Of a DNA stretch of 64,000 bases, positions 19,954 to 38,290 are shown one piece after another. The number at the start of each line of letters is the position of its first letter. The stretch's first letter is position 1. The translations under genes were made by a program, and so were the position numbers. Source of the DNA: an uncultured Woeseiaceae bacterium (GTDB taxonomy: Bacteria > Pseudomonadota > Gammaproteobacteria > Steroidobacterales > Woeseiaceae); the NCBI GenBank assembly GCA_945787845.1, contig CALZJH010000011.1, forward strand, positions 1 to 64,000. The letters run 5' to 3'. The notes under the pieces are model-generated. The model saw only the letters and a list, made by a program, of their open reading frames with translations. It did not search any database and was not told the origin of the DNA.

Positions 19954-21234
19954 CTATCGAGTGTGATGCAGCGGCTGCCCGAGCATGTCGGGCGTCACGA
20001 GAGTACGACCGGCCTCGGTCACGCGGAAGCCCCGCTCGCGGTCGTCGTCGTGATTTTCGCCAATCACATCGCCGTCGGCGATCGTGGCGCCCGCGTCGAT
20101 GATGCAATTTTCAATACGGCAGTGGTTGCCGACCTTGACGTCGGGCAGAAGCACCGAGCCCTTTACGCTGCTGAAGGAATTGACGGTGACGCGCGAAAAC
20201 AGCAGCGAGCCTCTGACCTCGGCACCCGACACAACGCAACCGCCCGACACCATCGACTGGATCGCCGCACCGCGGCGGTCCGGGTCGTCGAAGACGAACT
20301 TCGCCGGCGGCGCTTGTGTCTGGAGGGTCACGATCGGCCATTTCTGGTCGTAGAGGTTGAGCTGCGGCGTAACCGATACGAGCTCCATGTTGGCTTCCCA
20401 GAAGGCATCCAGGGTGCCGACATCGCGCCAGTAGGCCTGCTGCTGCGTCTCGGGGTCGCGGAACGGGTAGGCATAGACCTGGTAGTCCTTGATGATGGCC
20501 GGAATGATGTTTTTTCCGAAATCGTGGGCCGATGCCGGCGTGTCGGCATCCTTGATGACCTGCTCGTACAGGAATTCGGTATTGAAAACATAATTGCCCA
20601 TGGATGCGAGGCAGATCCCGGGCTTGCCGGGTATCGAGTTGGGTTTTTCAGGTTTCTCGTCGAAGGCGATGACCCGGCCGTTTTCATCGACGGTCATGAC
20701 CCCGAACTGGCCGGCCGCTTCTTCGCACGGCAGTTCGACGCAACTGACCGTCATGTCGGCGCCCTTGTCATCGTGCATGGCGAGGAATGGGCCGTAGTCC
20801 ATCTTGTAGATGTGATCACCGGCCAGGACCAGCACGAGGCGCGGGTCGTGAGTTCGGAAAATGTCGAGATTCTGATAAACGGCGTCCGCCGTGCCGCGGT
20901 ACCACTCGCCGCCAACCCGTTGAGATGCGGGGAGAATTTCCACGAACTCGCGCGCACCGGCCTGGAATCGGGACCAGCCGTGAACCAGGTGCCGGATCAA
21001 GGAATGGGCCTTGTACTGGGTGAGCACGCCGATACGACGCACGCCGGAATTGATGCAGTTCGAAAGGGCAAAGTCGATGATGCGGTACTTGCCGCCGAAG
21101 TAAAGGGCGGGTTTCGCCCTCCAGCTCGTCAGCTCGTAAAGTCTGGAGCCCTGTCCGCCTGCCAGAACAAGTGCCAGGGTATCCCGAGTGAGCAGGCTGA
21201 CGTGACGAGAAAACTCGCTATTCGATTGGTCCAT
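19954..21234 (-). CDS. glgC: Glucose-1-phosphate adenylyltransferase
   Basis: A 426-residue ADP-glucose pyrophosphorylase, the committed step of bacterial glycogen synthesis. The nucleotide-binding motif is [15 protein letters not shown]. Other blocks are [31 protein letters not shown] and, near the C-terminus, a left-handed beta-helix with [16 protein letters not shown]. It overlaps malQ by 17 nt and ends 10 nt before the inferred glgA start. The enzyme is usually under allosteric control by glycolytic metabolites. Confidence 0.96.
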
Positions 21235-22780
21235 GTGATGACGGTCCGCGCTCTGAGGCTGTTACCAGTGACGCGATATTGTCGCAGATTTCGGGCGTCA
21301 GTTGCTCGTCAATTACGCGCCAACGCCAGTTACCGCCGGATGTTCCCGGTGTATTGATGCGAGCCTCGGATCCCAGGCCCAGGAAGTCCTGCAATGGTGC
21401 TATAGCGATGCAGGCGGCCGTCGAAAATGCGGCCCGGATCAGGTCATGATGCATGGTTTCGGGGGTTCCCCCGGTAACGCGCAACGCGGCTGCCTGGTCG
21501 GCCTCGATGTCTGCGGCGCTGCGGATATCGTCCGGGCTGCCCCGGAACCAGCCTGCGGTCGTGTCGTTGTCGTGCGTACCTGAGTAACAAACGCTGTTTT
21601 CGCTCACATCAGACAGGGAGAAATTGGGATCGCAGACGTCGAACTGCAGCACATGCATGCCCGGGATCTGATGACGGTCCCGCAGGGCGGTTACTTCCGT
21701 CGTGATGACACCGAGGTCCTCGGCGACGATCGGCAGGTTGCCCAGCGCATCGCGCATGGCATCAAAGATGGCATCGCCCGGCCCGGGTTCCCAGGCGCCG
21801 CTTCGTGCCGTATCCGCGTCTGCCGGCACCGCCCAGTAAGCTTCGAAGCCGCGAAAGTGATCGATGCGTACGAGGTCGGCGAGCTCCGCCGTCGCGCGCA
21901 GGCGGTCGACCCACCACGCGTAGTCATCCGCCGCGTGCTGCGCCCAGTCGTACAGCGGGTTGCCCCAGAGCTGACCGTCCGCACTGAAATAGTCGGGCGG
22001 CACACCGGCCACATAGTCGGGACGTCCGTCTTCGTCGATGCGGAGGATTTCCCGGTTGGCCCAGGCGTCCGAGCTGTCGAGTGCGATGCAGATCGGCATG
22101 TCGCCGAACAGCACCACACCATTCTCGTGGGCATAGTCCCGCAGGGCCCACCATTGTCGGAAAAACAGGTACTGTATGATTTTGATCGCCTTGATACGGT
22201 CCGCTTCCTGCCGCTCGAGCCTCGCCAGTGCCGTGGCTTCGCGATGCACGTACTCAGGCTTCCATTCCGGCCATGGCCGTTCACCATGACGCGTCTTGAG
22301 GATGCGGAACAGCGCATAGTCATGCAGCCACTCCTTATCGTTTCTCGCAACGAAGCTATTGAAATCACTGAGAATTTCGTCGCTGACGGTGCTTTCGAAA
22401 CGGCCGGCAGCCAGCGCCAGCAGTCGATTCTTGACCGGTATCAGCGCGCCATAATCGACGTATCGATCAGGAAGCGTCGTCAATTCGCTGACTTCGCCGT
22501 GGTTGAGCAGTCGCAAATGAATCAATTCGCCAATATCAACGAGCATTTCATTGCCGGCAAACGTCGACAGCGGCTGGTAAGGCGAATCGCCGTAAGCGGT
22601 CGGGCCGAGCGGCAGGAATTGCCATACCGAAAGCTCCATGGCCCGCATTCGGTCCACGAAGGCATGCGCCGCCGCCCCGAGCTCGCCGATGCCATAGGGG
22701 CCGGGGAGAGACGTCATGTGCAGGCAAACGCCGGCACGCCGATCCCGCAGCAATTCCGGACCTTTCAGAATCTCAGCCAT
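21218..22780 (-). CDS. malQ: 4-alpha-glucanotransferase (amylomaltase)
   Basis: A 520-residue GH77 enzyme that moves maltooligosaccharide segments between chains and releases glucose. Conserved regions are [29 protein letters not shown] (nucleophile Asp), VAEDLG (acid Glu) and [13 protein letters not shown]. It is the first gene of the six-gene operon malQ-glgC-glgA-glgB-glgP-glgX and its 3' end overlaps glgC by 17 nt. The start faces the LacI-type twin operator at 22812-22861, 31 bp upstream, so it is likely repressed when maltodextrin is absent. Confidence 0.95.
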
Positions 22781-22811
22781 TGGAAGAACCTAAAGACAGC
22801 CCTTTCTGAGG

Positions 22812-22861
22812 GCAACGCGATGCATACGTATTCACCAATGAATACGTATGCATCGCGTTGC
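22812..22861. promoter_or_regulatory. Twin LacI-type operators in a perfect 23-bp inverted repeat
   Basis: Arms 22812-22834 and 22839-22861 (GCAACGCGATGCATACGTATTCA and its exact complement) are separated by CCAA. Each arm holds a near-palindromic LacI-type site with a central ACGT: TGCATACGTATTCA at 22821-22834 and TGAATACGTATGCA at 22839-22852, centred 18 bp apart. The element lies between the divergent malQ operon and the TonB receptor gene. The same 14-mer recurs once at 34017-34030. The LacI-type gene at 37262-38290 is the likely binder. Confidence 0.7.
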
Positions 22862-22929
22862 TCACGACAGAGCCGCTTCTTAAGATATGGAAACATCTGT
22901 AGGTAAGGCTCTTGTGGGGGGAAATCCTA

Positions 22930-25809
22930 ATGGCCAAGAAAAGGCGCAATCGCGCTCAAACAGTTTCAAGTGAGACAAATGACTGCGAATTAAGCAGCCG
23001 TCGTACAGCGTTGTCGCTTGCGGTCGCCGCCGCACTGGCCGGTGCTCCGGTCATGAGCAACGTGGCCTACGCACAGGACGCTGACGACGAGCCGATTGAG
23101 GAAATCATAACGACCGGCATCCGCATGAGTATCCTGGATTCCGTGTCAACGAAACGAGCTGGCGATACCATTGTTGACGTCGTCGACGCCGGCGTCCTGG
23201 GCTCGCTCCCTGATCAGTCCATTGCCGATGCGCTGGGTCGCCTGCCGGGCGTCACCACCATTCGGGACTCCGGGCAATCGTCGCAGTTGAATATTCGCGG
23301 TATGAATGGTGATTTCATCCAGACGACCATGAATGGCCGCGAGCAGGTGTCGACGGCGGGCTATTCGGAAGCGACGCGCTGGAGTTCGTTTGACCAGTAT
23401 CCTGCAGAGCTGGTTAACCAGGCCGCCGTCTACAAGGCGCCGAAGGCCTCGCAGATCGAAGGCGGTGTTGCCGGTATCGTAGAGCTGAAGACAGCCAATC
23501 CGCTGGATGCGCAGAAGCCCCACAACTTCTCGCTGAACGCGCGCATGTCGCTCAATGACGCGGCCGATTCCTACGGTGGCGACGACACGGGCGAGCGCTA
23601 TACGTTTTCTTACCAGGGCAAATTTGCCGACGACAAGGTCGGAATCGCCGCCGGGTACTCATTCCTCGAGCAGCCGAATGCGTTCATCTTCTCGCGCGCC
23701 GGCGCCGACAGCCAGCTCGGATTCGGAACCCGCAACATCAATGGCGTCGATGTTTCAGTGCCGCGGGCATTCCAGTGGCAGGCCGGTAATGGCAGCGATG
23801 AGCGCACCGGCTACCTCGCCTCGATTGTGTTTCAGCCGAATGACAGGATTAAGGCCCAGGTCGACTATTTCCGTTCGGAATTCGACCGTGGCGATGCGCG
23901 CCAGGGCATCACGGTCGGCGGTCTCGATGAGGATGAGGCCAACTCCGTAATTACCAATCCTGTCGTCGTCGATGGGCTTCTCACGAGCGCGACCGTCAGC
24001 GCCGTCGATCCCAACGCGGTAGGACAGTCTCATCCGTGGTTCGAGGCTCGTACCGAAGACCAGACGACGACAGCCGATTCCGAGACAGTCGGCCTGAATC
24101 TCGAGTGGTTCATCACCGATTCCAGCACACTGTCGCTGGATTACTCGACCGGCGAGGGCACCAAGACACGCGAGGATCGCATCGCGTCGATGCACGCCTA
24201 TGAACCTGGTGGCGCAGCGGAGGCCGCCAACACGTCGTTTACCTACCAGTTGAATGGCGAAGGAATAGCGACGGGTAGCTTCAGCGGCTTCGATTTCACC
24301 GACCCGAATTCCATGATGCTGTCGCGCTACGAGCGATACCCGCACCTCTATACCGATGAGATCGATTCCTTCAAGGTTGATTTCAGGCAGGACGTTGAGT
24401 GGGGAGCCATTTCCTCGGTCGAAGCAGGCGTTCGTCTTTCGGAGCGCACGTTTGGTGCGGATCGCGGCACGTTCCTGTACGGGTCGCGCAGTGGCCAGGG
24501 AACGGGCTGGTGTGAAGACAACACGTCAAGTCTCACCTGCGCGCCGCAGTCGGTGGCCAACTTCGTCAGCACACAGTCCCTGCCGGGCGTACCGGATCAC
24601 TTCATTATTACCGACCTGAATGGTCTCGGCGATGCCATTTTCGGCCCGGGCGGTTCTGCCGGTATCAAGCTGCACAGCCGTGACTGGACCTTTATCGAGT
24701 CGAACGACATCCAGGAAGACACGGAAGCGCTTTACCTGATGGCAAACCTCGATTTCGAGTGGGGCGATGTTCCCGTCAGCGGTAACATAGGTGTTCGCTA
24801 CGTACGGACTGACGTGAAGACGATCGGTCTGCAGAACGTCGGCGCCGGCAACGGCACACCGATCACCGATGGCGTTGGCGTTACCCAGGATAACCTCGAT
24901 TTCGTCGACTACGGTCCGGACTATTCGGACACGCTGCCTTCTATCAACCTGAATTTCGAGCTCACCGAAAATGACATCCTGCGGGTCGCCGCAGCCAAAG
25001 TCATCGGTCGTCCGCCGGTCGGTCAGATGAAGGGCGGCGCCGGTTCGTGGAACGGCGGTGCGGATCCCAACACGGGCCTCATCGAGTACAACGTCTGGAC
25101 CAATGGCACGCCGTACCTGGACCCGTTCCGCGCCAATCAGCTCGACGTGTCTTATGAGCACTACTTTGATGACGGTGGCGCCGTTACGGCCGCTGTTTTC
25201 TGGAAAGACATCGAGTCGCTGGTTGAAGGCCCGACGCAGTTCACGGGCGACGACATTCCGGACGACCTCGGCATCATCGTGCCGCCGGGCCAGTTCCTCA
25301 ACATCTACCAGACCTACCTGAACAACGATAAAGGCGGCTACATCCGGGGCATCGAGCTGGCGGGCACCACGACCTTCGATTCCCTGCCCGGGATCTGGGC
25401 CGGACTGGGTGCGACGGCCAGCTATTCGTTTACCGAGAGTGAGACGCAGGTCGGCGGAGGCGCGTTCTACAATCAGGACCTGCCGTTGCCGGGTCTGTCG
25501 GAAAATGTCTGGAGTGCGACGGTGTTTTTGGACATCGACCGCTTCAGTTCACACATCAACATGCGCTATCGGGACGAGTTTGTGCAGAACCTGCCTATTC
25601 CGGGTGCTGGTTCGCCGACGCTGGCCCAGGCCTATACCACGGTCGATGCGCAAGTGTCTTACGCGTTCGACAATGGCCTCACCATCGTATTGTCGGGTAA
25701 CAACCTGACTGACGAGGAGAACATCATCGAATACGGTGTTGATAACGCATTTGGCGAGTACAAGCAGTTTGGACGCCAGTTCTACTTTGGAGTCAACTAC
25801 CAGTACTAG
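22930..25809 (+). CDS. TonB-dependent receptor, probably for maltodextrin-type alpha-glucans
   Basis: A 959-residue outer membrane receptor. A long basic N-terminus leads to a signal sequence (SLAVAAALAGAPVMSNVAYAQ). Then come an acidic stretch, a TonB-box-like EEIITTGIR, and a plug domain (SIADALGRLPGVTTIRDSGQSSQLNIRGMNGD). A 22-strand type barrel ends in the aromatic residues of GVNYQY. The layout matches the TonB-Xanth-Caul receptor group, many of which take up sugars. The track start is TTG 22912; ATG 22930 after GGGGGGAA is preferred. The upstream twin operator, the downstream alpha-glucan enzymes and the adjacent glycogen operon point to maltooligosaccharides as ligand, by inference. 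A terminator follows the stop. Confidence 0.9.
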   Translation: MAKKRRNRAQTVSSETNDCELSSRRTALSLAVAAALAGAPVMSNVAYAQDADDEPIEEIITTGIRMSILDSVSTKRAGDTIVDVVDAGVLGSLPDQSIADALGRLPGVTTIRDSGQSSQLNIRGMNGDFIQTTMNGREQVSTAGYSEATRWSSFDQYPAELVNQAAVYKAPKASQIEGGVAGIVELKTANPLDAQKPHNFSLNARMSLNDAADSYGGDDTGERYTFSYQGKFADDKVGIAAGYSFLEQPNAFIFSRAGADSQLGFGTRNINGVDVSVPRAFQWQAGNGSDERTGYLASIVFQPNDRIKAQVDYFRSEFDRGDARQGITVGGLDEDEANSVITNPVVVDGLLTSATVSAVDPNAVGQSHPWFEARTEDQTTTADSETVGLNLEWFITDSSTLSLDYSTGEGTKTREDRIASMHAYEPGGAAEAANTSFTYQLNGEGIATGSFSGFDFTDPNSMMLSRYERYPHLYTDEIDSFKVDFRQDVEWGAISSVEAGVRLSERTFGADRGTFLYGSRSGQGTGWCEDNTSSLTCAPQSVANFVSTQSLPGVPDHFIITDLNGLGDAIFGPGGSAGIKLHSRDWTFIESNDIQEDTEALYLMANLDFEWGDVPVSGNIGVRYVRTDVKTIGLQNVGAGNGTPITDGVGVTQDNLDFVDYGPDYSDTLPSINLNFELTENDILRVAAAKVIGRPPVGQMKGGAGSWNGGADPNTGLIEYNVWTNGTPYLDPFRANQLDVSYEHYFDDGGAVTAAVFWKDIESLVEGPTQFTGDDIPDDLGIIVPPGQFLNIYQTYLNNDKGGYIRGIELAGTTTFDSLPGIWAGLGATASYSFTESETQVGGGAFYNQDLPLPGLSENVWSATVFLDIDRFSSHINMRYRDEFVQNLPIPGAGSPTLAQAYTTVDAQVSYAFDNGLTIVLSGNNLTDEENIIEYGVDNAFGEYKQFGRQFYFGVNYQY

Positions 25810-25898: not shown

Positions 25899-25912
25899 GC
25901 TAGGCTGTGGCA

Positions 25913-27430
25913 ATGAGACAGGCTATGAATGACAGCATGAAAAGTATTGTAATTCTGGGTGGCGGAACCGCCGGCTGGATCGCCGCAAATCTTATTGCGA
26001 CTCATTGGGAAGACAAGCAGCTCGACATCACCCTGGTCGAGGCGCCCGATATCGGCATTATCGGTGTGGGCGAGGGCTCTACCCCACCGCTCAAGACCTT
26101 CCTGGAGGTTATTGGCGTGGCAGAGGATGAGTGGATGGGGCGTTGCGATGCAACCTACAAGGTGGGTATCACGTTCAGGGACTGGTCGACGAAACCCGGG
26201 TTTGACGAGTACTTCCATCCATTCTTGTGCCAGCCCGATGAGTTCTCGGTTCCCGCCTTCTTCCACAACAGTTTCTTGCGCCGCCAGGGGGTCGACCTTG
26301 ACGGGCACCCCAGCCAGTACTTCCTTGCGTGGCAGCTGGCGAAGCAGCGGCTGGCGCCAGTCGCGCCACCAAATTTTCCGTTCGAGATGAATTACGGATA
26401 TCACTTCAATTCGGGAATGCTGGGCGAATTCCTGCAGGAGTGGGCGGCCAGGAAGGGCGTCAAATACAAGCAGGCGGCGGTAACCGAGACGGTACTCAAC
26501 GAGCACGGTTACATCGATTACCTGAAGACCGACACCGAGGAAACCATCAAGGCCGATTTCTATGTCGACTCGACGGGTTTTCGCAGCGAGTTGCTGCAAA
26601 AGGCGCTCGGCGTGCCATTTGAGAGCTGCGAGGACGTGTTGTTTAACGATTCGGCGGTCGTCTTCCCGACCGAGCCCGACGAGAACCCGTCACCGCAGAC
26701 GATCTCGACCGCGCTCAAGTATGGCTGGGGATGGAAGATTCCCTTGACGTCGAGATTTGGCAACGGCTACGTCTACAGTTCAAAGTACGTGGACGACGAC
26801 GATGCAGAGATGGAGTTCAGGCAGCACCTGGGGCTGGTGGATTCCGACATCGAAGCCCGCAGGCTCAAGTTCAAGGTAGGACGTGTCAAGGAACACTGGG
26901 CCAAGAACTGTCTCGCCGTTGGCCTGTCACAGGGCTTCATCGAGCCGCTCGAGGCGACGGCGCTCGATATGGTGCAGGAAACTGTGGTGCGCTTCATTGA
27001 AGCTGCCAATAAAGGCAATTTCACTGACCAGTACAGAGATGAATTCAACGAGCGCATCAGCAAGCGATTTGATGCAGTGCGCGACTACATCGTTTGCCAC
27101 TATCGCATCAGTTCGCGCGACGATACTGACTACTGGCGCGATTGTGCAACCAACGAGAAAATATCCAGGTCGCTGCGCGAGCTCCTCACCGCGTGGATGT
27201 CGGGCAAGAATATTACCGACGAACTCGAGCGGCAGAACCTGGACGCCTATTTCCCGAGTGTGTCGTGGAATTGCCTGTTAGCGGGGAAGGGCATTCTGCC
27301 GTCGCAGGACCAGGTCCGGCCGGGCAATGAGCTGGCGCACAAGTATGACCTTGCGAAGATTGCGAGCTATCTTGAGGGTTGCGCCCTCAACTTCAAGCCC
27401 CACCAGGAGCAGCTGCGCGCGGTTCACTGA
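25913..27430 (+). CDS. Tryptophan halogenase-like flavoprotein (TonB receptor partner)
   Basis: A flavin-dependent halogenase-family protein of about 505 residues. Motifs: GGGTAGW for FADH2, GVGEGSTPPLK, the catalytic lysine in ATYKVGITFRDW, the WxWxIP signature GWGWKIPLTSRFGNG, and GLSQGFIEPLEATAL. All key residues seem intact. Several starts are possible (GTG 25907, ATG 25913, 25925, 25937) and no ribosome-binding site decides between them. It follows the receptor terminator closely and its 3' end overlaps the convergent homologue by 7 nt. Family enzymes at TonB loci often halogenate indoles in vitro; the natural substrate here is unknown. Confidence 0.88.
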   Translation: MRQAMNDSMKSIVILGGGTAGWIAANLIATHWEDKQLDITLVEAPDIGIIGVGEGSTPPLKTFLEVIGVAEDEWMGRCDATYKVGITFRDWSTKPGFDEYFHPFLCQPDEFSVPAFFHNSFLRRQGVDLDGHPSQYFLAWQLAKQRLAPVAPPNFPFEMNYGYHFNSGMLGEFLQEWAARKGVKYKQAAVTETVLNEHGYIDYLKTDTEETIKADFYVDSTGFRSELLQKALGVPFESCEDVLFNDSAVVFPTEPDENPSPQTISTALKYGWGWKIPLTSRFGNGYVYSSKYVDDDDAEMEFRQHLGLVDSDIEARRLKFKVGRVKEHWAKNCLAVGLSQGFIEPLEATALDMVQETVVRFIEAANKGNFTDQYRDEFNERISKRFDAVRDYIVCHYRISSRDDTDYWRDCATNEKISRSLRELLTAWMSGKNITDELERQNLDAYFPSVSWNCLLAGKGILPSQDQVRPGNELAHKYDLAKIASYLEGCALNFKPHQEQLRAVH

Positions 27431-28926
27431 AAGCGCAAGGCATCGTTGTGGGGCTCGAAGTTGAGTCCACAACGGCGAATGAACTCGTCAACTGCGCGCA
27501 TGTCGATCTTGCTGCCGGACTGAGTGTCGACCGGCGTCGGCTTGATCGGAGGATAGAAGCCGTAACCTGACAGTAAACAGGTCCACGACATGGGCGTATA
27601 GGAGGAGCGAATCTGCTGGCGCTCCATTTCCTGGTTGAGGCTCTGACCCGACGTCCAGATCTGCAGTATCTTCTGTAGTTCTGCAGACACGTGCTTGTTC
27701 TCGCCGTTTTGCCGCCAGTAGTCGGTATCGGCACGTGAGTTCATGATGTAGTGGGCGACGATGTAATCCCGGATCCTCTCGAAACGGTCATTGACCCTCT
27801 CGTTGAACGTCATCTGTCCGCTCTCCGAGAATCCCTGTGCATCGACCGTGTCGATGAAGTCGTCTACCGTGTTGCAGACGAGATTCAGTGCCGTCGCTTC
27901 GAGGGGCTCGATAAAGCCCTGAGACAGACCGACAGCAAGGCAGTTCTTGTGCCAGTGCTTGTCGATGCGCCCGACCTTCATCTGCAGGTGTCGTGCCTCT
28001 ACATCGCTATCCAGTAGTCCGAGATGGGTGCGTAATTCGGTCTCGGCGTCATCGGCGGTGCAGAACGAGGAACTGTAGACATAGCCATTGCCGATGCGAT
28101 GCGTCAGCGGAATCTCCCATGCCCAGCCGTATTGCATTGCGGTGGAAACCGTTTGTGAGCCAATTTCCTCTACCTGGCTCGTGGGCAGGACGACGGCAGA
28201 GTCGTTGAACAGGTTGTCCGAAAAAGACCGGAATGGAATCTCCATCGCGTCCTGGATCAATGCGCCTCGAAACCCGGAGCAGTCGACGAAGAAATCGCCA
28301 GAAATGGTTTCTCCGGCATCGCTTACCAGGCTGCCGATGGCGCCGCTATCTGTCAGATTGACGTCGACGATCTTGGCCGCGACGTGCCGGGCGCCGCGCT
28401 GAACGGCTTTCTCGCGCAAAAACTCGCCAACGAGGTTGGCGTCGAAGTGATAGCCGTATTCGACGGCGAACGGAAAATTCTCGCTCGGCCTGGGGCCGAG
28501 TCTATTCTCGGAGAGGCTGGCCGAGAGAAAGAAACGATCGGGATGAGCATGTACGTCAATGCCCTGACGCCGTGCGTAGGTATTGAAGTAGAACGCGGTG
28601 ATTGTGTGTTGATCCAGTTGCGAAGCAAACGGATGAAAATAGCGGCTGAATCCCGGCCGCGTCGACCAGTTGGCGAAGCTAATTCCATTCTTGTAGGTCG
28701 CATTGCACCGTGGCATCCACTCGGACTCCTCGACGCCTATGGAGTCAAAGAACAGCTTCATGCGGGGGGTCGAGCCTTCCCCGACACCGACCGTCCCAAT
28801 TGCCGGCGACTCGATAACGGTGATGTTGATGTCCTTGTCAGACCAGCGCGCGAGCAGCGTGTTGCTCGTGATCCAGCCCGCGGTACCGCCGCCCAGGATG
28901 ACAATGTTCTTCGGCTTTCTAGTCAC
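27424..28926 (-). CDS. Tryptophan halogenase-like flavoprotein (GH31-GH13-esterase partner)
   Basis: A 500-residue relative of the preceding gene, on the opposite strand. Motifs: GGGTAGW, GVGEGSTPRMK, lysine in ATYKNGISFANW, GWAWEIPLTHRIGNG (WxWxIP) and GLSQGFIEPLEATAL. The track extends to 29193, but that part is a shadow of the upstream gene. GTG 28926 gives MTRKPKNIVILGGG and overlaps the stop of the giant hydrolase gene by 8 nt, which implies translational coupling to it. The two neighbouring halogenase-like genes are clearly related, so an old duplication is likely. Confidence 0.88.
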   Translation of the reverse strand: MTRKPKNIVILGGGTAGWITSNTLLARWSDKDINITVIESPAIGTVGVGEGSTPRMKLFFDSIGVEESEWMPRCNATYKNGISFANWSTRPGFSRYFHPFASQLDQHTITAFYFNTYARRQGIDVHAHPDRFFLSASLSENRLGPRPSENFPFAVEYGYHFDANLVGEFLREKAVQRGARHVAAKIVDVNLTDSGAIGSLVSDAGETISGDFFVDCSGFRGALIQDAMEIPFRSFSDNLFNDSAVVLPTSQVEEIGSQTVSTAMQYGWAWEIPLTHRIGNGYVYSSSFCTADDAETELRTHLGLLDSDVEARHLQMKVGRIDKHWHKNCLAVGLSQGFIEPLEATALNLVCNTVDDFIDTVDAQGFSESGQMTFNERVNDRFERIRDYIVAHYIMNSRADTDYWRQNGENKHVSAELQKILQIWTSGQSLNQEMERQQIRSSYTPMSWTCLLSGYGFYPPIKPTPVDTQSGSKIDMRAVDEFIRRCGLNFEPHNDALRFQ

Positions 28927-31900
28927 GATGGGCCTCTTGCCAGGTGGTCGGCGCCAACAGGAACTCCAGCTGCGCGCCTGCGCGTGCGCGCCAGGCTCGC
29001 TCACTATGGTCGGCGCCCTCGAACTTTCGCATGACGAAGTCGCGTCCTTCGACCAGCCCCTCACGCAGGAACCACTCGCGAACCGGTTGGTGATCAGCCT
29101 CGTAGGTGGCGTCCAGGGTTTCAGTTCCGTAATCGAAGTAAAAGCGCCCGCCGCGTGAAATTGTATCGCCTTTGGCAATATCCCTGACGACAAACGGTGT
29201 CGGATCGGGGCTGGTCACAGGCTCATCCCAGATGTCGACAATGTTCTGCTCTGAGAAGGCAAAGTGCGTCGATACGCAGCCACAGGCGCCAAATACGTCC
29301 GGGTGGTTCTTGACCAGGTACCAGGAGAGCAGCCCCCCCATCGATGAGCCCATCGCCGATGTGTTCCCGGGACCGGTCAGCGTTCTGAATTCGGCATTGA
29401 CCCGTGGCATCAGCTCCTCGGTCAGGAACCTTGCGTAGGCTGATGCGTCGTGCCAGGGCGAATACTCGTGACGTCGATTGGCGGTGCTCCACGCGCCAAC
29501 GACGATGGCGGGCTCATGGCGGCCCGCGGCCACGCCACGCATCATGGCCTCGTCGATGCCCCAGTCCACGCCCCAGCTCGCGATTCGCGGGTCGAACAAG
29601 TTCTCGCCGTCCGTCATATAGATGACACGATAGTGCTTCGCGGGATCATCTTCATAGCCCGGCGGCAACCAGATGACGACGTTTCGGGATGGCCCCAGGA
29701 TTTCGGATGGCATGTCCTGCCAGTAGACGATGTTGCCCAGCACGCCGGAACCGGTCGGGTCATCCACGTACGGCTGGTCGTCGAGCGGTTTGAAACGGCC
29801 TTCGCCGATGCGATAGACGAGCGATTCCAGCGGCGCCAGGCGTACCGCGACCTTGCCTGCACCCTGGTCGACGACGATTTCCCCTTCGTGGTTGCCGTAC
29901 AGAATATCCTTGAGCGCGTGGCGCCCGTCCGCAAGACGCAGGGACGCGACGACGTCGGCGGGAATATCAAGGTTCAGGACAACGTCGTCCTGGTCGTCGA
30001 AGTTACTCACCGCGATCAGGCGTTCTTCTTCAGCCCAGCGGGCGAATGCGAACAGGCGGTCGCTGCTTGCCGGCAGGTGTGCGTAAGCGCCGGACATTGC
30101 CGGGTTGTCCCGGCTGATGTTGAGGAGCCGGGCGTAGAAGTCACGCAGTGCAGCCTCGTCGGGCGCAAGCGCGCCGCCGTCGAATCTGCCGTCATTCATC
30201 CAGCGCTGATGGGCGGGGACGCCCCAGTAGTCGAATATCGTTGTTCGGGTGGCTTTGCCGAAGCCCGCATCGTTATTGGCGGGAACGCCGACTTCCTGGC
30301 CGAAGTAGAGCATGGTGGGTCCGCTGCCGATCAGTGCCGCAACGACCATGCCGGGCTTGGCGCGATCGGGACTGCCGGCGAAACCTTCACTGGCGATCCG
30401 CTGTTCGTCGTGGTTCTCGAGGAAGTGCAGCATGTGCTGCTCGATGTCCAACACGTCGGCCTGTGCGGCGGCAATACTGTCGGTGCCTGCGTCGTCCTGG
30501 ATGACGGCCCGGGTCGCATCGTAGAGACCGACCTTGTCATACAGGTAATCCATGCGCCCAAGATCGATGTAATCACGGTACATGTCCGGCACATAGATCT
30601 CTGACAACACGAACGCATCCGGATTGCGAACTTTGATCGATGCATTCAGGTAGCTCCAGAATTCCACCGGGACCATTTGCGCCATGTCATAGCGAAAGCC
30701 GTCGACGCCCTTATCGAGCCAGAAGTGGGCAATGTCCCTGAACTTCTTCCAGCTGGCAGGAACATCGCGTTCCTCCCAGAAGTCGGCAATTTGCTCGTTC
30801 GGCCAGTTGCGGGCTGCGTCGGGGAGACGGTCGAAAGCGTAGCTGCCATCCGGCCGTACTCCGAAATTTATCTTCACGGTTTCAAACCAGTCGTCGGTTT
30901 TCGGCTGTGCTGCGCGTGAGCCATTGCCGGTCCACTTGGCTGGCGACTCCGCAAATTTTCCATCAGCCAGTGGATGCTGTTCGCCACCCAGTGGCACGTA
31001 GCCTTCCGGCACCGAGAAGTCCTCGCCGACAATGTAGTAGAAGCTGTTGTCGCGCGCCCAGGCGACGCTGGTGTCGTCATCCTCACCGAAGTCCCGAATA
31101 CCGCCCGGCCTCACCAGCGAACGGTAGCTGCGCGCGATATGGTTGGGCACGATGTCGATAACCACCTGCATGCCGTTGGTATGCGTTCGCTTGATGAGCG
31201 CCTCGAACTCCTCCATGCGCTTGTCCGGATGTCGTGCGAGGTCCGGATTCACGTTGTAGTAGTCTCTTACCGCATAGGGCGACCCCGCGCGGCCCTTGAC
31301 GACATCGGGGTCGTCATTGCTGATACCGTAGTCCGTGTAATCGCCGACCAAGGCATGATGCGGGACGCCTGTGTACCAGACGTGTGTTGTTCCCAATTCT
31401 CGGATACCTTGCAATGCCGCATCGCTGATATCAGCAAACTTGCCGACACCATTGTCTTCAATCGTGCCCCAGGGCTTGTTCGTCGAGTTCTTGTTGCCGA
31501 AGAGCCGCGTGAAGACCTGGTAAACGACAGGCTTTTCTGCGGGAGGCGGACCAGGATCCTCATTAACCTCCAGCAATGCGGGCTGGTGATCCCACACGAC
31601 GCGGGCCGTCAGCCTGTCGCCCTTCTTTCGTGCTTTGACGACCCTGTCGCCAAAGCGGACCATCCTGGTGTCCGCTGTCCAATTATGGATGATGATTTCG
31701 AGCTCGCGAGCGGCCGGCATTTCCTCGTAACCCTGGCCCGACCGGTCGAGTTCGATACGCAGGTAATCGTCTTTTTGTTGCGCCTTGAATTCGAGTAACT
31801 CGAAGCGGCCGTCCTCCAGGCTCGTTCGACTGCTGCCGTCGTCCTCATACATTTGGCCGGACGCCTCCGGAACCGACTCATCAGCGTAATAGTGGAGGGT

Positions 31901-33943
31901 GAGTTTCTCGCTCGAGTAGTCGCGTGTCGTCTGGATCTCGGGCGTCATCGGAACGAATGAGCCGGCGCGCACGAGCACGGGAATCGTCTCGAGTGTTACG
32001 GGGATATCGATGCGCCGTCCGCCCTCGAGGCGTTCGCCGGTCCAGAAGTTGAACCAGGCCCCCGGCGGCACCAGCGTGCTGACCGTCTCTACGCCCGGGT
32101 CGGTCACGGGTTTGACGAGGAACGCATCGCCCCAGAAGTAGCTGTCCTTGATGTCGATGAGCTGCGGCAGCGACTCATCCACGAAGAACGCAGGACGCAT
32201 GAGCGGCATGCCGGTCGTGCTGTTCTCGTACGCCAGCGTGTAGTTGTACGGCATCAGGCGATAGCGCAGGTTGATTGCGTCGCGCACAATACGGCGCGTC
32301 CTGCGGTCGTGAAATACGGGCTCAGCCGGAATGTGTTCCTGTGCGTGTGGACGATAGACTGGCTGGAACACGCCGTACTGCAGCCAGCGGATATACATTT
32401 CCCGGTCGAAGGTCTCGCCGCCGGCAAAGCCGCCGAGATCCGAGTGCATGTAGGCGAGGCCGAACAAGCCGCCCTGCAGCGCCAGTTCGACCTGCGGCTT
32501 GAGTCCGCCCCACTCACGACTGACGTCACCGGTCCATGGAATGAGGCCATAGCGCTGCGAGCCGGCGAAGCCGGAACGCATCATTATCATTGAGCGCATG
32601 TCCGGATACTTCCGGATCTGGCGTTCGTAAACCATGCGTGCCCATTGATGGCCGTACGCGTTGTGAATTTCATCGCCCGTCGCCTCGATACCGGCCTCCG
32701 ACAGCCGGTGCAACGCGTCGCCCGGATGCACTTCAGGTTCCCCGAGATCGCCCCACGTCGCGGCGGTTCCCTGCTCAAACAGCCTCTCGTAGGGCTTCCA
32801 GAACCAGTCGGCCGCCCGATCGTCGAAGACGTCGATAAGCCCTGTGTTGCCGAAATAGAAGTCGAATCGGCGCGGCTCGCCCGACGATGTGCGTGCGAGT
32901 ACCCTGTTATCGACCGCGTCCTGCCAGCGCTTCGACGTGCTCAGGACAAAGGGCTCGGTAATGGCAATGGTCTTCACGCCATCGCTGGCGAAGTCGGCCA
33001 TCATGTCTTCGGGAGTCGGCCACGCGTCCCGGTCCCAGTCGAGGTTGCCCATATGGCCCTTGATGTCGGGACCGAACCAGAAAATGTCGAGGATGATGGC
33101 GTCGAGCGGAATCCTGTGTCTGCGAAAACGCCGCACTACATCGCGCGTCTCTTTTTCCGAGTGATATCCGAAACGCGATGCGAAGTTGCCGAATGCCCAG
33201 CGCGGCGGCAGCGGCTGCTTGCCGGTGACGTCCGTGTAGTTGTCGATGAGATCTGGGTAGCTATCGCCGGCGACGATGATGTACGAGGTGCGCCCGCCAA
33301 CCGCTTCGAACTGCAGAATATCCGGCTCCGTATGGCCGATGTCCAGCCAGCCACTGGCGGAATTGTCGAAGACGACCATGTACTTGTCCGACGACATAAT
33401 TGCCGGGAGGCTGTAGTACATCTGCTCGGACTCGGTCGTGTAGCCATAGTGCGCCTTGTTATAGAGCGGCATCCGCTTGCCGCGTCGGTCCATGCCCATG
33501 ACCCGCTGGCCGCCGCCGAGTATCTTCTCGCCATCGTCGAGCGCGAAGCGAAAACCGCGTGCCTCGTCGTCGATGAAGTAGCCGTCACGCTCTTCGATCA
33601 ATGCCTCGCCGCCACGCAGGAATGAAATACGTACGGGTGATTTCTCGACCACCGCTGTTAGCCCGTCGACCTGTATCGAGATCGTCTGGTCGGATTCTTT
33701 GACGACCGGGGCAACGTGGGGCAGGTGCGGTGCCAATGCGAATGAGGGTAGCTGCTTGACGCCGGTCTCGAGGTAGTGGACCTCGAAGCCATGGTCATCA
33801 ATCGCCCGGATGCTCAGGTCACCGCGCTCGCTGTGTACCACGACCCTGTCGTCTGAGACTTCGTGTGACTCGTACTCACCGAAATCGGCAACGGCCCACG
33901 GTGCCGCCAGTAACAAAACGATACGGATAGCAAGGTGTCTCAA
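28919..33943 (-). CDS. Exported three-domain protein: GH31 alpha-glucosidase, GH13 alpha-amylase and esterase
   Basis: One unbroken frame of 1674 residues. TTG 33943 is preferred over the track's GTG 33970: GGGAG lies 6 nt upstream and the protein then starts with a signal peptide (MRHLAIRIVLLLAAPWAVA). Domain 1 (about residues 60-795) is GH31, with nucleophile D399 in WGDLGE and acid/base D502 in HSDLGGF. A short proline linker (GPPPAEKP) leads to domain 2 (about 800-1345), GH13, with IDIVPNHI, D1086 in GFRYDMAQ, E1115 in LSEIY and D1179 in ENHDEQ. Domain 3 (about 1400-1674) is an enterochelin-esterase/EstD-like alpha/beta hydrolase, with S1534 in GSSMGG and H1646 in GADHSERAW. All three active sites look intact. 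It probably digests alpha-glucans in the periplasm or outside; the esterase substrate is unknown. Confidence 0.9.
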   Translation of the reverse strand: MRHLAIRIVLLLAAPWAVADFGEYESHEVSDDRVVVHSERGDLSIRAIDDHGFEVHYLETGVKQLPSFALAPHLPHVAPVVKESDQTISIQVDGLTAVVEKSPVRISFLRGGEALIEERDGYFIDDEARGFRFALDDGEKILGGGQRVMGMDRRGKRMPLYNKAHYGYTTESEQMYYSLPAIMSSDKYMVVFDNSASGWLDIGHTEPDILQFEAVGGRTSYIIVAGDSYPDLIDNYTDVTGKQPLPPRWAFGNFASRFGYHSEKETRDVVRRFRRHRIPLDAIILDIFWFGPDIKGHMGNLDWDRDAWPTPEDMMADFASDGVKTIAITEPFVLSTSKRWQDAVDNRVLARTSSGEPRRFDFYFGNTGLIDVFDDRAADWFWKPYERLFEQGTAATWGDLGEPEVHPGDALHRLSEAGIEATGDEIHNAYGHQWARMVYERQIRKYPDMRSMIMMRSGFAGSQRYGLIPWTGDVSREWGGLKPQVELALQGGLFGLAYMHSDLGGFAGGETFDREMYIRWLQYGVFQPVYRPHAQEHIPAEPVFHDRRTRRIVRDAINLRYRLMPYNYTLAYENSTTGMPLMRPAFFVDESLPQLIDIKDSYFWGDAFLVKPVTDPGVETVSTLVPPGAWFNFWTGERLEGGRRIDIPVTLETIPVLVRAGSFVPMTPEIQTTRDYSSEKLTLHYYADESVPEASGQMYEDDGSSRTSLEDGRFELLEFKAQQKDDYLRIELDRSGQGYEEMPAARELEIIIHNWTADTRMVRFGDRVVKARKKGDRLTARVVWDHQPALLEVNEDPGPPPAEKPVVYQVFTRLFGNKNSTNKPWGTIEDNGVGKFADISDAALQGIRELGTTHVWYTGVPHHALVGDYTDYGISNDDPDVVKGRAGSPYAVRDYYNVNPDLARHPDKRMEEFEALIKRTHTNGMQVVIDIVPNHIARSYRSLVRPGGIRDFGEDDDTSVAWARDNSFYYIVGEDFSVPEGYVPLGGEQHPLADGKFAESPAKWTGNGSRAAQPKTDDWFETVKINFGVRPDGSYAFDRLPDAARNWPNEQIADFWEERDVPASWKKFRDIAHFWLDKGVDGFRYDMAQMVPVEFWSYLNASIKVRNPDAFVLSEIYVPDMYRDYIDLGRMDYLYDKVGLYDATRAVIQDDAGTDSIAAAQADVLDIEQHMLHFLENHDEQRIASEGFAGSPDRAKPGMVVAALIGSGPTMLYFGQEVGVPANNDAGFGKATRTTIFDYWGVPAHQRWMNDGRFDGGALAPDEAALRDFYARLLNISRDNPAMSGAYAHLPASSDRLFAFARWAEEERLIAVSNFDDQDDVVLNLDIPADVVASLRLADGRHALKDILYGNHEGEIVVDQGAGKVAVRLAPLESLVYRIGEGRFKPLDDQPYVDDPTGSGVLGNIVYWQDMPSEILGPSRNVVIWLPPGYEDDPAKHYRVIYMTDGENLFDPRIASWGVDWGIDEAMMRGVAAGRHEPAIVVGAWSTANRRHEYSPWHDASAYARFLTEELMPRVNAEFRTLTGPGNTSAMGSSMGGLLSWYLVKNHPDVFGACGCVSTHFAFSEQNIVDIWDEPVTSPDPTPFVVRDIAKGDTISRGGRFYFDYGTETLDATYEADHQPVREWFLREGLVEGRDFVMRKFEGADHSERAWRARAGAQLEFLLAPTTWQEAHRD

Positions 33944-33992
33944 AGCAAACTCCCGATCAGGATGCGGCACGGCAGGATAGTACTGAATACTA

Positions 33993-34030
33993 GATAATCG
34001 CCGGTTTTCGCGGGGATGAATACGTATGCA
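33993..34030 (+). promoter_or_regulatory. Candidate promoter with downstream LacI-type operator
   Basis: GATAAT at 33993-33998 could be a -10 box for the MFS/amylase pair. TGAATACGTATGCA at 34017-34030 is identical to the right half of the twin operator at 22839-22852. A repressor bound there would block transcript start or early elongation. The site also lies 74 bp before the divergent GH31-GH13-esterase start, so both directions may be controlled. The operator is seen directly; the -10 box is a guess. Confidence 0.6.
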
Positions 34031-34099
34031 GGCAAGCCGGCCCGGGGAAGTGGGTTGCTACAATTGGACGCATCACGGGGGAACACAGGCGCAACAACA

Positions 34100-35605
34100 A
34101 TGAAACAAAAGCCGGTATTGAGCTTCTGGCAAGTCTGGAACATGTGTTTCGGATTCCTCGGGATCCAGATGGGTTTCGCGTTGCAGAACGCGAACGTCAG
34201 TCGCATCTTCCAGACGCTCGGCGCAGCCGTCGATGAGATACCTATCCTGTGGGTCGCGGCGCCGCTGACGGGGCTCATCGTGCAGCCGATCATCGGCTAC
34301 ATGAGCGACCGTACCTGGAATAGGCTCGGCCGGCGTCGCCCGTATTTCCTCGTTGGCGCGATCCTCGCGTCGCTGGCGCTGTTTGTCATGCCGAACTCCC
34401 CGTACCTGTGGTTCGCCGCCGGCATGCTGTGGATCATGGACGCCAGTATCAATGTATCGATGGAGCCGTTCCGCGCCTTTGTCGGCGACATGCTTCCCGA
34501 GAAGCAGCGGACATCGGGCTTCGCGATGCAGACGTTTTTCATCGGTGTCGGTGCGGTCATCGCATCGGCATTGCCCTGGATCATGACCAACTGGCTCGAT
34601 ATCAGCAATACCGCGCCGGCCGGAGAGATCCCGGATTCCGTCAAGATCGCCTTCTATGTCGGCGGCGCGGCATTCCTGCTGGCCGTGACGTGGACCGTGT
34701 TCCGCACCAGGGAGTATTCACCCGACGAGCTGGCCGCGTTCGATGCCGCACGCCCACCCGAGCACGTGGCTGACGACACCTCGTTGCGGGCAGCGTCCAG
34801 GTACCGCAACGGCGGCGTCGCCTGGCTCGGTGTTGGACTGGCATTCCTGTTCTGGATCGCCAACAGCGGCCTCGACAAGGAGCTGTATATTCTCGCCGGC
34901 GGCATCGCCGTGTTCGGCCTGTTCCAGGTTGTCGTAGCGTTCCTGCAAGACAGGGGAGCAACGAGCAACGGTTTTTACGAAATAATGCACGACCTGTTTC
35001 ATATGCCGAAGGTCATGCGGCAGCTCGCGGTCGTGCAGTTCTTCTCCTGGTTTGCAATGTTCGCGATGTGGATCTACGGGACGTCTGCCGTCACGAGTTT
35101 CCACTTCGGCGCCACCGACGTAACCTCAGCCGCGTATAACGATGGCGCCGACTGGAACGGCGTGCTGTTCGGTTCCTACAACCTGTTCGCAGCGCTGGCT
35201 GCCATTGCCATTCCCTTCGTCGCCAACCGGCTGGGCTGCCGCATGAGTCACCTGTTCAACCTGGCGCTCGGTGGGATCGGCCTGATCAGTTTCTACTTCA
35301 TCAGGGATCCCTACCTGTTGCTGATCCCGATGGTCGGTGTCGGCTTTGCATGGGCGTCGATCCTGTCTCTGCCATATGCCCTGCTGTCGAACAACCTGCC
35401 GTCCCACAAGATGGGCGTGTACATGGGGATTTTCAATTTCTTTATCGTGATCCCGCAGCTCGTCGCGGCGAGTATCCTGGGACTGTTGCTGCGCGAGTTC
35501 TTCGACCTGCAGCCGATCTTCGGCCTGATTATCGGAGGTATTTCGCTGCTGATCGCCGGTGCAGTGACCTTGCTCGTCGACAAGTCTGCGGAACCTGCGG
35601 CATGA
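34100..35605 (+). CDS. MFS (GPH/SLC45-like) sugar transporter, probably maltose/maltodextrin
   Basis: A 501-residue transporter with 12 likely membrane helices. The N-terminus LSFWQVWNMCFGFLGIQMGFALQNANVSR is characteristic of proteobacterial sugar:cation symporters near maltodextrin genes. Loop motif DRTWNRLGRRRPYF fits the MFS A-type motif. The track's start at 34016 would translate through the operator; ATG 34100 is the family-like start, although the ribosome-binding site is weak. Its stop overlaps the next start as ATGA. It would bring the maltose or short oligosaccharides made in the periplasm into the cell for MalQ and GlgP. Confidence 0.88.
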   Translation: MKQKPVLSFWQVWNMCFGFLGIQMGFALQNANVSRIFQTLGAAVDEIPILWVAAPLTGLIVQPIIGYMSDRTWNRLGRRRPYFLVGAILASLALFVMPNSPYLWFAAGMLWIMDASINVSMEPFRAFVGDMLPEKQRTSGFAMQTFFIGVGAVIASALPWIMTNWLDISNTAPAGEIPDSVKIAFYVGGAAFLLAVTWTVFRTREYSPDELAAFDAARPPEHVADDTSLRAASRYRNGGVAWLGVGLAFLFWIANSGLDKELYILAGGIAVFGLFQVVVAFLQDRGATSNGFYEIMHDLFHMPKVMRQLAVVQFFSWFAMFAMWIYGTSAVTSFHFGATDVTSAAYNDGADWNGVLFGSYNLFAALAAIAIPFVANRLGCRMSHLFNLALGGIGLISFYFIRDPYLLLIPMVGVGFAWASILSLPYALLSNNLPSHKMGVYMGIFNFFIVIPQLVAASILGLLLREFFDLQPIFGLIIGGISLLIAGAVTLLVDKSAEPAA

Positions 35606-37287
35606 GAGTTGTCGTTGCAGGAATCGCGCTACTGCTGGCGTCGTGCGCGACGCCGCCGGATGCAAGTCATGCAAGCCGGGAGTACTACGGCACGCTCGAG
35701 CCGTTCGCGGCCGAGGCCGTGTATTTCCTGCTGACCGACCGCTTCGTCGATGGCGATCCGACTAATAATTTCCCGGAGCAGGGCGGCGGTCCGGATACGC
35801 GTACTTTTGACAGGCCGATTCATGTCCCCGGCTACGAGCCGGCGAACATGGGCTACATCGGCGGTGACTTCAAGGGCGTGCTCGACAACGCGGCCTACAT
35901 TGCCAACATGGGGTTCACGGCTGTCTGGACAACTCCGATTGTCGACAACCCGGACGAAGCCTTTACGGGCAGCACGATTCCTGGAAGAGGGCCGGGCGGG
36001 GATCGCGGCAAGTCGGGATTTCACGGCTACTGGGGCGTGAACTTCTTTGTCGTTGACGAGCATCTTGAGTCTGCCGATCTTACCTTCGCAGATTTTACCC
36101 GGGAGCTCCGGGATGGGCACGACCTCAAGTACGTCCTCGATGTGGTTTGCAACCACGGTTCACCGGCGTACACCATGCCCGCAGACCAGCCCGATTTCGG
36201 CGAGTTGTATGACGCTGAAGGGCAGCTTGTCGCCGACCACCAGAACCTGCACCCGTCGGAACTGGACCCGGAGAATCCGCTGCACGCGTTTTATAACCGC
36301 GAGCCGGGACTGGGTGAATTGTCCGACTTCAACGAAAACAACCCCGAGGTCCTGGACTACTTTGTTGCCGCGTATTCGCAGTGGCTCGACCAGGGTGTTG
36401 CAGCCTTCAGAATCGATACGATCGCTCACATGCCGCATGCTTACTGGAAAGCGTTCAGCGACAGGATTCGGGAGAAGCGCCCGGGGCTCTTCATGTTCTC
36501 GGAGAACTTCGCCTACGATGCAACTGCCATTGCACCGAACACGTGGCCGGAAAATGGGCAGATCAGTGTCCTCGATTTCCCCGGTAAGCAGGCGATGAAC
36601 CGGGTATTTGCGGACGGCGCGAATTACAGTGAACTGTCCAGCTACCTGTACCTGGATTCAGGCCTCTACGACAATCCCTATGACCTGATGACGTTTTACG
36701 ACAATCACGATATGGACCGCATGAGCGCCGATACGCACGGGTTCATCGACGCCAACAACTGGTTGTTTACGAGTCGCGGCATACCTGTCGTCTACTATGG
36801 TTCGGAAATCGGCTTCGAGGCGGGTACCAACGAGCACACAGGCAACCGCAATTACTTCGGGCAGGTCAATGTCGAACGCGCAAAGTCGCATCCGATCCAT
36901 GCGGCGCTGACGCGCATTGCCAACATCCGCAAGAACTCAGTCGCACTGCAGCGGGGCCTGCAGGTTTACACGGGCTTCGGTCCGCGCTCGGCGAGTTTTT
37001 TTCGCGTGTATCAAAAAGACGGTGTGCGCCAGACCGCACTCGTACTGCTTAATGGTGGCGACGAGGCCATTACGATGGAGTTTGGTCAGCTACCGGCGAA
37101 CGGTGCCTGGAAGGATGCTGTGACAGGACATGTTGTCCAGGTAGACGAGGATTTCACGGGACTGGCCGAGGAGGTTGCGCCGCACAGCGTGCGTGTCTAT
37201 CTCAACGATGAGCCGCTCGCGCACCCGGAATTCGTGAAATTGCTGGACGAAGCGCAGGCTGCTAAAGCGCGCCGCACGATGCCCTGA
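35602..37287 (+). CDS. Lipoprotein alpha-amylase (GH13)
   Basis: A 561-residue secreted amylase. A lipoprotein signal is visible (MRVVVAGIALLLASC, Cys at about residue 15). GH13 regions are DVVCNHGSP, AAFRIDTIAHM (nucleophile Asp), MFSENFAYD (acid Glu) and FYDNHDMDRM. DRFVDGDPTNN near the N-terminus is a typical calcium-binding start of the barrel. The serine and alanine that follow the lipobox Cys do not suggest inner-membrane retention, so it probably sits in the outer membrane. It is coupled to the transporter by ATGA. The 3' end overlaps the convergent LacI-type gene by 26 nt. Confidence 0.92.
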   Translation: MRVVVAGIALLLASCATPPDASHASREYYGTLEPFAAEAVYFLLTDRFVDGDPTNNFPEQGGGPDTRTFDRPIHVPGYEPANMGYIGGDFKGVLDNAAYIANMGFTAVWTTPIVDNPDEAFTGSTIPGRGPGGDRGKSGFHGYWGVNFFVVDEHLESADLTFADFTRELRDGHDLKYVLDVVCNHGSPAYTMPADQPDFGELYDAEGQLVADHQNLHPSELDPENPLHAFYNREPGLGELSDFNENNPEVLDYFVAAYSQWLDQGVAAFRIDTIAHMPHAYWKAFSDRIREKRPGLFMFSENFAYDATAIAPNTWPENGQISVLDFPGKQAMNRVFADGANYSELSSYLYLDSGLYDNPYDLMTFYDNHDMDRMSADTHGFIDANNWLFTSRGIPVVYYGSEIGFEAGTNEHTGNRNYFGQVNVERAKSHPIHAALTRIANIRKNSVALQRGLQVYTGFGPRSASFFRVYQKDGVRQTALVLLNGGDEAITMEFGQLPANGAWKDAVTGHVVQVDEDFTGLAEEVAPHSVRVYLNDEPLAHPEFVKLLDEAQAAKARRTMP

Positions 37288-38290
37288 CGATCAGGCGCGG
37301 CGCCATTTGCGTCGATTCGACGGGCTTGCCCTCGATCAGTCCGACGATGCCGCGTACCAGGCCTTCGGCGGCCTGCCTGATGTCCTGTTGAACGGTGGTG
37401 AGTGCGGGTGTGACGTGGCCCGCCAGCGAAATGTCATCAAAACCCACGATAGCAATGTCATCGGGAATCGTTAAGCCGTTGTCTTCGAGCGCCCGCATGG
37501 CGTCGATTGCGATGACGTCAGTGACAGCAAAGATAGCGTCGAATTCTACGTCTCGCGAGAGTAAATCGAGGGCGGCCCGGTAGCCCTCTCCCTCGGAACT
37601 CATGGCATCGACTTTTAGCCTGTCGTCGGGCTCGAGGCCGGCATCGAGCAACGCCTTGCAGTAGCCGTCATAACGAGACGCCAGCTCTGGCGATCGCTGG
37701 GAGGTGCTGCCCAGGAAAGCGATGCGTTTGCGGCCATGCCCGAGCAGGTGTCGAGTTGCCTGGTATCCGCCATCGACGTTGTCGCAGCCGATCGAATGCC
37801 CAGGCTGATTGTCGATCATCGGTCCCCAGATCATAAAGCGCGTGTTGGCCCGCGCCAGCGCCTCGATCTTCTCGTGATAGGTGAGGTAGTCGCCATAGCC
37901 GAGAAGGATCAGGCCGTCGGCCCGATTGCTGGCCTGGTACTCAATATGCCAGTCGTCAGTCAGTTGCTGCATGGAGATCAGCACATCGTATCCCAACCCT
38001 GACGCAGCGCGAGTGATGTAACCCAGCATCGACAGGAAGAACGGATTGATTTGTGCATCTTCGCCCTCGGTCTCGTCGAACAGGAGCAGCGCAATCGTGT
38101 TGCTTTGCTGGGTCCGCAGACCCGCCGCGTTGCGGTTTACGAAGTAGTTCAACTCACGCGCGATTTGCTGCACACGTTGGCGCGTTTCCTCCCGCACGAG
38201 GGGACTGTTGCGCAACGCGCGCGAAACGGTTGCCTGCGATACGCCGGCAAGCTCCGCGATATCCCGCGATGTCGGGTTGTCAGCTTTCAT
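37262..38290 (-). CDS. LacI family transcriptional regulator of alpha-glucan use
   Basis: A 342-residue LacI-type repressor. The N-terminal helix-turn-helix is SRDIAELAGVSQATVSRALRNSP with the hinge helix region NRNAAGLRTQQSNTI. A periplasmic-binding-protein-like effector domain follows, with IAIVGFDDISLAGHVTPALTTV. Effector is probably maltose or another alpha-glucoside. The palindromes at 22821-22852 and 34017-34030 have the central CG step typical of LacI-family operators. It starts in an ATGA overlap with the DUF2189 gene and ends 26 nt inside the convergent amylase gene. Confidence 0.9.
   Translation of the reverse strand: MKADNPTSRDIAELAGVSQATVSRALRNSPLVREETRQRVQQIARELNYFVNRNAAGLRTQQSNTIALLLFDETEGEDAQINPFFLSMLGYITRAASGLGYDVLISMQQLTDDWHIEYQASNRADGLILLGYGDYLTYHEKIEALARANTRFMIWGPMIDNQPGHSIGCDNVDGGYQATRHLLGHGRKRIAFLGSTSQRSPELASRYDGYCKALLDAGLEPDDRLKVDAMSSEGEGYRAALDLLSRDVEFDAIFAVTDVIAIDAMRALEDNGLTIPDDIAIVGFDDISLAGHVTPALTTVQQDIRQAAEGLVRGIVGLIEGKPVESTQMAPRLIVRASCGAL

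Follow-up and report, generated by a model that had tools for sequence, protein, structure and literature searches.

Results

A mirrored pair of LacI-type operators between malQ and a TonB receptor gene

The stretch of DNA analysed here (the window, 64,000 nucleotides) carries a maltodextrin cluster in which malQ and a TonB-dependent receptor gene diverge from an inverted repeat with the following genes and elements:

21218..22780, minus strand: malQ, 4-alpha-glucanotransferase (GH77), heading a series of minus-strand glycogen-metabolism genes
22812..22834, plus strand: left arm of the repeat, 9-bp flank GCAACGCGA and operator TGCATACGTATTCA
22821..22834: LacI-type operator TGCATACGTATTCA, malQ side
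22835..22838: spacer CCAA
22839..22852: LacI-type operator TGAATACGTATGCA, TonB-receptor side
22839..22861, plus strand: right arm, operator TGAATACGTATGCA and 9-bp flank TCGCGTTGC
22930..25809, plus strand: TonB-dependent receptor (TIGR01782), followed by a tryptophan-halogenase-like gene
28919..33970, minus strand: GH31, GH13 and esterase-domain protein, presumed regulon member
34017..34030: third operator copy, single, between the divergent GH31 and MFS genes
34100..35605, plus strand: MFS sugar transporter, presumed regulon member
35578..37287, plus strand: GH13 alpha-amylase-type enzyme, presumed regulon member (ORF start putative)
37262..38290, minus strand: LacI-family regulator of 342 aa with recognition helix VSQATVSR, presumed binder

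The GH31, GH13 and esterase domains at 28919-33970 share one 1683-aa ORF, a putative fusion. Downstream of the receptor lie two convergent tryptophan-halogenase-like genes (25907-29193), and such genes adjoin receptors in many related loci too.

The two arms of 23 nt are 100% complementary across a spacer of 4 nt, each consisting of a 14-bp LacI-type operator and 9 more mirrored bp, and the operator centres lie 18 bp apart, which confirms the twin operators in a perfect inverted repeat that a first-pass annotation had described. Since the operator consensus equals its own reverse complement, an inverted repeat arises from any two copies, and the symmetry is to that extent trivial; what is not trivial is the mirrored orientation of the half-sites (TGCA outside, TGAA inside) together with the 9 mirrored bp past each operator. 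We found no second close inverted repeat of comparable quality in a scan of the window, and a chance origin of the repeat was considered and rejected. With up to two mismatches allowed the motif occurs 3 times in the window, compared with a mean of 0.37 in shuffled sequences, none of which reached 3. Across the 3.68-Mb genome TGMATACGTATKCA occurs exactly 3 times, always in the maltodextrin cluster, and its reversed control not once, so that the idea of dedicated operators survives the question of whether the motif is scattered at random; approximate sites (2 mismatches) number 73 genome-wide versus 36 for a control pattern, about half thus being expected by chance. All three exact sites are even palindromes with a central CG (TGMATACGTATKCA), as LacI operators are defined (PMC4052901), and the third is flanked by the -10-like boxes TACAAT (34059-34064, plus strand) and TAGTAT (33991-33986, minus strand).

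The cluster's own LacI protein as the probable binder

The genome encodes 3 LacI-family proteins, with recognition helices VSQATVSR (the cluster protein), VSIATVSR and VSIKTVSR, and the cluster protein alone has Q at the helix specificity position where the other two have I. LacI homologues encoded beside ATACGTAT pairs in Proteobacteria, Bacilli and Actinobacteria nearly all have Q at that position, and the helix does not vary among the 33 orthologues in which it was read. The protein scores above the cut-offs of PF00356 (LacI helix-turn-helix) and PF13377 (periplasmic-binding-protein-like sensor), while none of the named NCBI LacI equivalogs (GntR, RbsR, GalR, MalI and others) was reached, the best score being 158 bits versus a cut-off of 400. 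Among 73 genomes of the genus an orthologue (at least 65% identity) is present in 35 and the operator pair in 30; 29 genomes have both, 1 the pair only, 6 the LacI gene only and 37 neither (Fisher test 4e-13, with kinship ignored), and the sole genome with a pair but without an orthologue is 79% complete. Considering that the motif is exclusive to the cluster, that the VSQ helix matches and that pair and orthologue co-occur, the binder is very probably the protein at 37262-38290, and the earlier attribution of the operators to it is well supported by these comparisons. The two further LacI-family genes leave room for another regulator at these sites, be it one of their products or a non-LacI protein, but we regard this as very unlikely, since it is the cluster gene that co-occurs with the pair; the other two LacI proteins were rejected as binders on account of the I in place of Q in their helices. 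The target genes suggest maltodextrin as the signal.

A fixed register between operators and predicted promoters

Comparative alignment of the pair loci of the host family (probably Woeseiaceae), read outward from each operator, placed the following promoter elements:

22787..22792, minus strand: predicted -10 box TAGGTT, malQ-side promoter, start at about 22780, at or beside the malQ ATG
22810..22815, minus strand: predicted -35 box TTGCCC, malQ-side promoter
22858..22863, plus strand: predicted -35 box TTGCTC, TonB-receptor promoter
22881..22886, plus strand: predicted -10 box TAAGAT, TonB-receptor promoter, start at about 22893

TTG stands at outward positions 6-8 on the receptor side of 31 of the 35 family loci and on the malQ side of 27, and a TAnnnT box begins at positions 28-30 in 33 of the 35 on each side; we predict these to be -35 and -10 boxes about 17 bp apart. 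A longer operator that would include TTGC was rejected, as the TAnnnT box 23 bp further out marks the TTG as a -35 box. In the source genome each operator, on the malQ side as on the receptor side, is thus centred about 47.5 bp upstream of the start predicted for its own promoter (position -47.5), close to the -35 box. A promoter and terminator consensus scan returned no promoter at either site, the predicted promoters being weak consensus matches. The predicted malQ-side start (about 22780) coincides with the annotated malQ ATG, which would point either to a leaderless malQ mRNA or to a true start codon further in.

The same register is seen outside the family. Of the 184 flanks of 92 further pair loci, mostly proteobacterial, 43 have TTG exactly at +6 (the average offset has 4.8) and 73 have TAnnnT at +29/+30 (where about 10 would be expected), the -10 box being better kept than the -35 box. 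TonB receptors, GH13, GH31 and MFS proteins are among the products of the genes around these loci, and because these genes vary, one inherited promoter is not the whole answer. Regions with a single site, too, have a -10-like box to either side of it, at about +25 to +29, which puts the site at about -43.5 to -47.5 in a looser register.

Spacing of the pair and its helical phase

Of the 35 family loci, 31 lie between divergent malQ and TonB-receptor genes, one is truncated by the end of its contig, in one the receptor is encoded on the opposite strand, and two are in genome G098. In the last, two operator pairs 2.7 kb apart (L182 and L223, on G098:C1) differ in flanks and spacers, one lying between malQ and a GH13 gene and the other in front of a TonB receptor. 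The centres of the operators are 19 bp apart in 31 family loci and 18 bp apart in 4, the source genome among the latter, and in other bacteria the spacing peaks at 19, 29-31 and 39-41 bp. This periodicity (R=0.60 at 10.5 bp, phase 0.83 turn) was as strong in 0 of 5000 null sets; a helically phased distance between sites is kept across species, as in cooperative tandem sites. With spacings of 19, about 30 and about 40 bp, related pairs hold one helical phase, and the two dimers are therefore predicted to sit nearer the same DNA face than opposite faces. Earlier they had been placed on nearly opposite faces, about 1.7 turns apart; for 18 bp that arithmetic is correct, yet a fraction of 0.71 turn puts the second site about 100 degrees away from the same face, not nearly opposite, and the phase analysis does not support binding to opposite faces.

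In the closest relative (G042, locus L150) MalQ is 92% and the LacI protein 95% identical and the mirrored flanks are the same, with a TonB receptor only about 35% identical. The comparison suggests that the receptor was replaced behind a conserved promoter.

Symmetry beyond the operators

The five bases between operator and TTGC differ between species, and yet they mirror each other exactly in 14 of the 23 register-aligned family loci, where permutation gave 4.9 on expectation and a maximum of 11 in 20,000. The excess holds for distinct flank pairs (6 of 14 mirrored versus 0.7 expected) and in a thinned set (9 of 17 versus 2.2 expected). Mirrored flanks include TCGCG (source genome and G042), TTAGG (G014), TCGCA (G051), TCGGA (G002), TTCCA (G096), TGGCC (G098) and TTGCA (several loci), the last of which could be plain retention. 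In the MalQ tree G014, G051, G002 and G098a group together (support 86/73, weak), each with a different mirrored flank; many forks of this tree are weak, so it is uncertain how many of the paired flank changes were independent. Mirror runs in the 23 register-aligned loci fall into two classes, 0-3 and at least 9, with a maximum of 16 (G070), and the full set of 35 adds two intermediate runs, of 4 and 7, both from G098. Changes between species appear joint, multi-base and nearly all-or-none in the two arms. The five-nt spacers of the family end in A towards the TonB-receptor gene in 27 of 31 cases, and the remaining 4 match the family pattern only when inverted, 3 of these belonging to loci whose mirror runs measure 7-9. 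In a Saccharophagus-type locus (L069) with a 26-nt gap between the operators, the flanks are mirrored too, with TAGCATTG on both sides.

Template switching between inverted repeats is described as leaving homogenised arms together with inverted spacers (PMC8604942, PMC8794818), and on this basis we infer that arm symmetry has probably been restored repeatedly by template-switch homogenisation, that is, by DNA-copying errors. A quite different view is that the whole repeat is selected as a DNA structure, a cruciform or hairpin that regulates both promoters; the flanks do covary as base pairs would, and a single DNA strand of the repeat folds strongly (-30 kcal/mol, z -11). We consider selection for such a structure unlikely, given that 9 of the 23 register-aligned loci have kept operators and promoters without flank symmetry and that symmetry is lost nearly all-or-none, not pair by pair. 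An RNA hairpin acting as attenuator or terminator would likewise have a strong stem if the repeat were transcribed (the fold was computed on the DNA strand), but transcription from either predicted start would begin beyond the repeat and run away from it, and neither arm is followed by a T tract; we rejected this reading as highly improbable. The first-pass annotation had proposed a cruciform or an RNA hairpin in both transcripts: a DNA structure could form, whereas the RNA hairpin is not supported, with the repeat outside the predicted transcripts.

Discussion

Taken together, these comparisons give the operators a constant register on the upstream side of the two -35 boxes and close to them (the promoters being predicted, not mapped), as in an activator-type promoter site. 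Since such a register is what an activator needs, its recurrence suggests contact with RNA polymerase and, probably, activation; weak core promoters and a better-kept -10 box fit this without proving it. The reading that we favour, as somewhat the more probable, is that phased MalR-like dimers activate both promoters and that the symmetry is a by-product of template switching. The repeat would be the common control element of a divergent maltodextrin/glycogen promoter pair, at which two dimers of the cluster's own MalR-like LacI regulator would bind side by side, one operator per promoter, with cooperativity arising from the second, helically phased operator. The bound regulator would then touch RNA polymerase and, on balance, activate both promoters upon the maltodextrin signal. 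As for the symmetry, two near-palindromic operators 4-5 nt apart could form a hairpin during replication, and template switching would repeatedly copy one arm onto the other and sometimes invert the spacer, with exact mirror symmetry past the operators as the by-product.

The sites had earlier been taken to bind repressor dimers, a role that their position makes doubtful. In the classical repressor scheme, two dimers would bind cooperatively by the -35 boxes and shut both promoters to polymerase until released by a maltodextrin ligand. Repression is indeed the mode of most LacI-family sugar regulators that have been characterised, among the MalR-type proteins pneumococcal MalR, for instance (PMC4451989), and an operator this near a -35 box could interfere with sigma or with the alpha subunit of polymerase. 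However, simple blocking needs no common register upstream of -35 of the kind shared by many genera and target genes, and the core promoters are weak; we therefore see classical repression as a serious contender that is nonetheless appreciably less probable than activation. A repressor that contacts polymerase could need a fixed register too, and is the main alternative to activation.

We regard the element as a variant on the paired LacI operators already known. In this family Cra (FruR) of Escherichia coli activates ppsA from a site just upstream of the -35 box. A literature search for a Cra precedent at -45.5 found no supporting text, and a search for the ATACGTAT motif with LacI found nothing relevant. 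Cra resembles the regulator proposed here in being a LacI-family protein that, according to the available part of one survey (Ravcheev et al. 2014, PMC4052901), both represses and activates; it differs in controlling fructose and central metabolism. That survey, in the same part, likewise has even palindromes with a central CG, reads paired sites with helical spacing as cooperative binding and predicts the mode of regulation of PckR from site position. Its spacing peaks are at 13, 22 and 32 bp, as against 18-19, about 30 and about 40 bp here, so that our phasing fits that of its tandem sites (22 and 32 bp) without matching its exact distances; it gives distances to start codons, whereas the register described here is to -35 and -10 boxes.

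Among maltodextrin regulators the closest likeness is to the LacI-type MalR of Shewanella, whose predicted sites, in the text available to us (PMC2996990), precede transporter and glucosidase genes as well as a divergent TonB-receptor operon. Here too sites stand upstream of receptor, transporter and alpha-glucan enzyme genes (malQ/TonB receptor and GH31/MFS), as in a proteobacterial MalR regulon. The Shewanella receptor faces malZ-glcP, whereas here it faces malQ and glycogen genes, and the same portion of that report describes no mirrored pair. For the symmetry the parallel is with quasipalindromes in yeast genes (PMC8604942), rRNA genes (PMC8794818) and an E. coli reporter (PMC7202029), which share homogenised arms and joint multi-base changes and have inverted spacers, as the four exceptional spacers here may be; those are coding genes, rRNA genes or reporters, whereas ours is a bacterial double operator with putative template switching.

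At present we can only tentatively extend this picture, at somewhat less than even confidence, to VSQ-type LacI activators at about -47.5 that would be widespread at proteobacterial TonB-receptor and glycan genes, with double operators kept symmetric by template switching. If this is true, template-switch copying would be a mutational route to the concerted evolution of a pair of regulatory sites. In annotation, LacI-family sugar regulators usually appear as repressors, and the register at about -47.5 across many genera would make activation a directly testable prediction for many TonB-receptor loci. Moreover, the covarying flanks look like a natural bacterial case of changes that resemble selected base pairing and are probably replication errors, and as such they are a warning for structure inference based on covariation.
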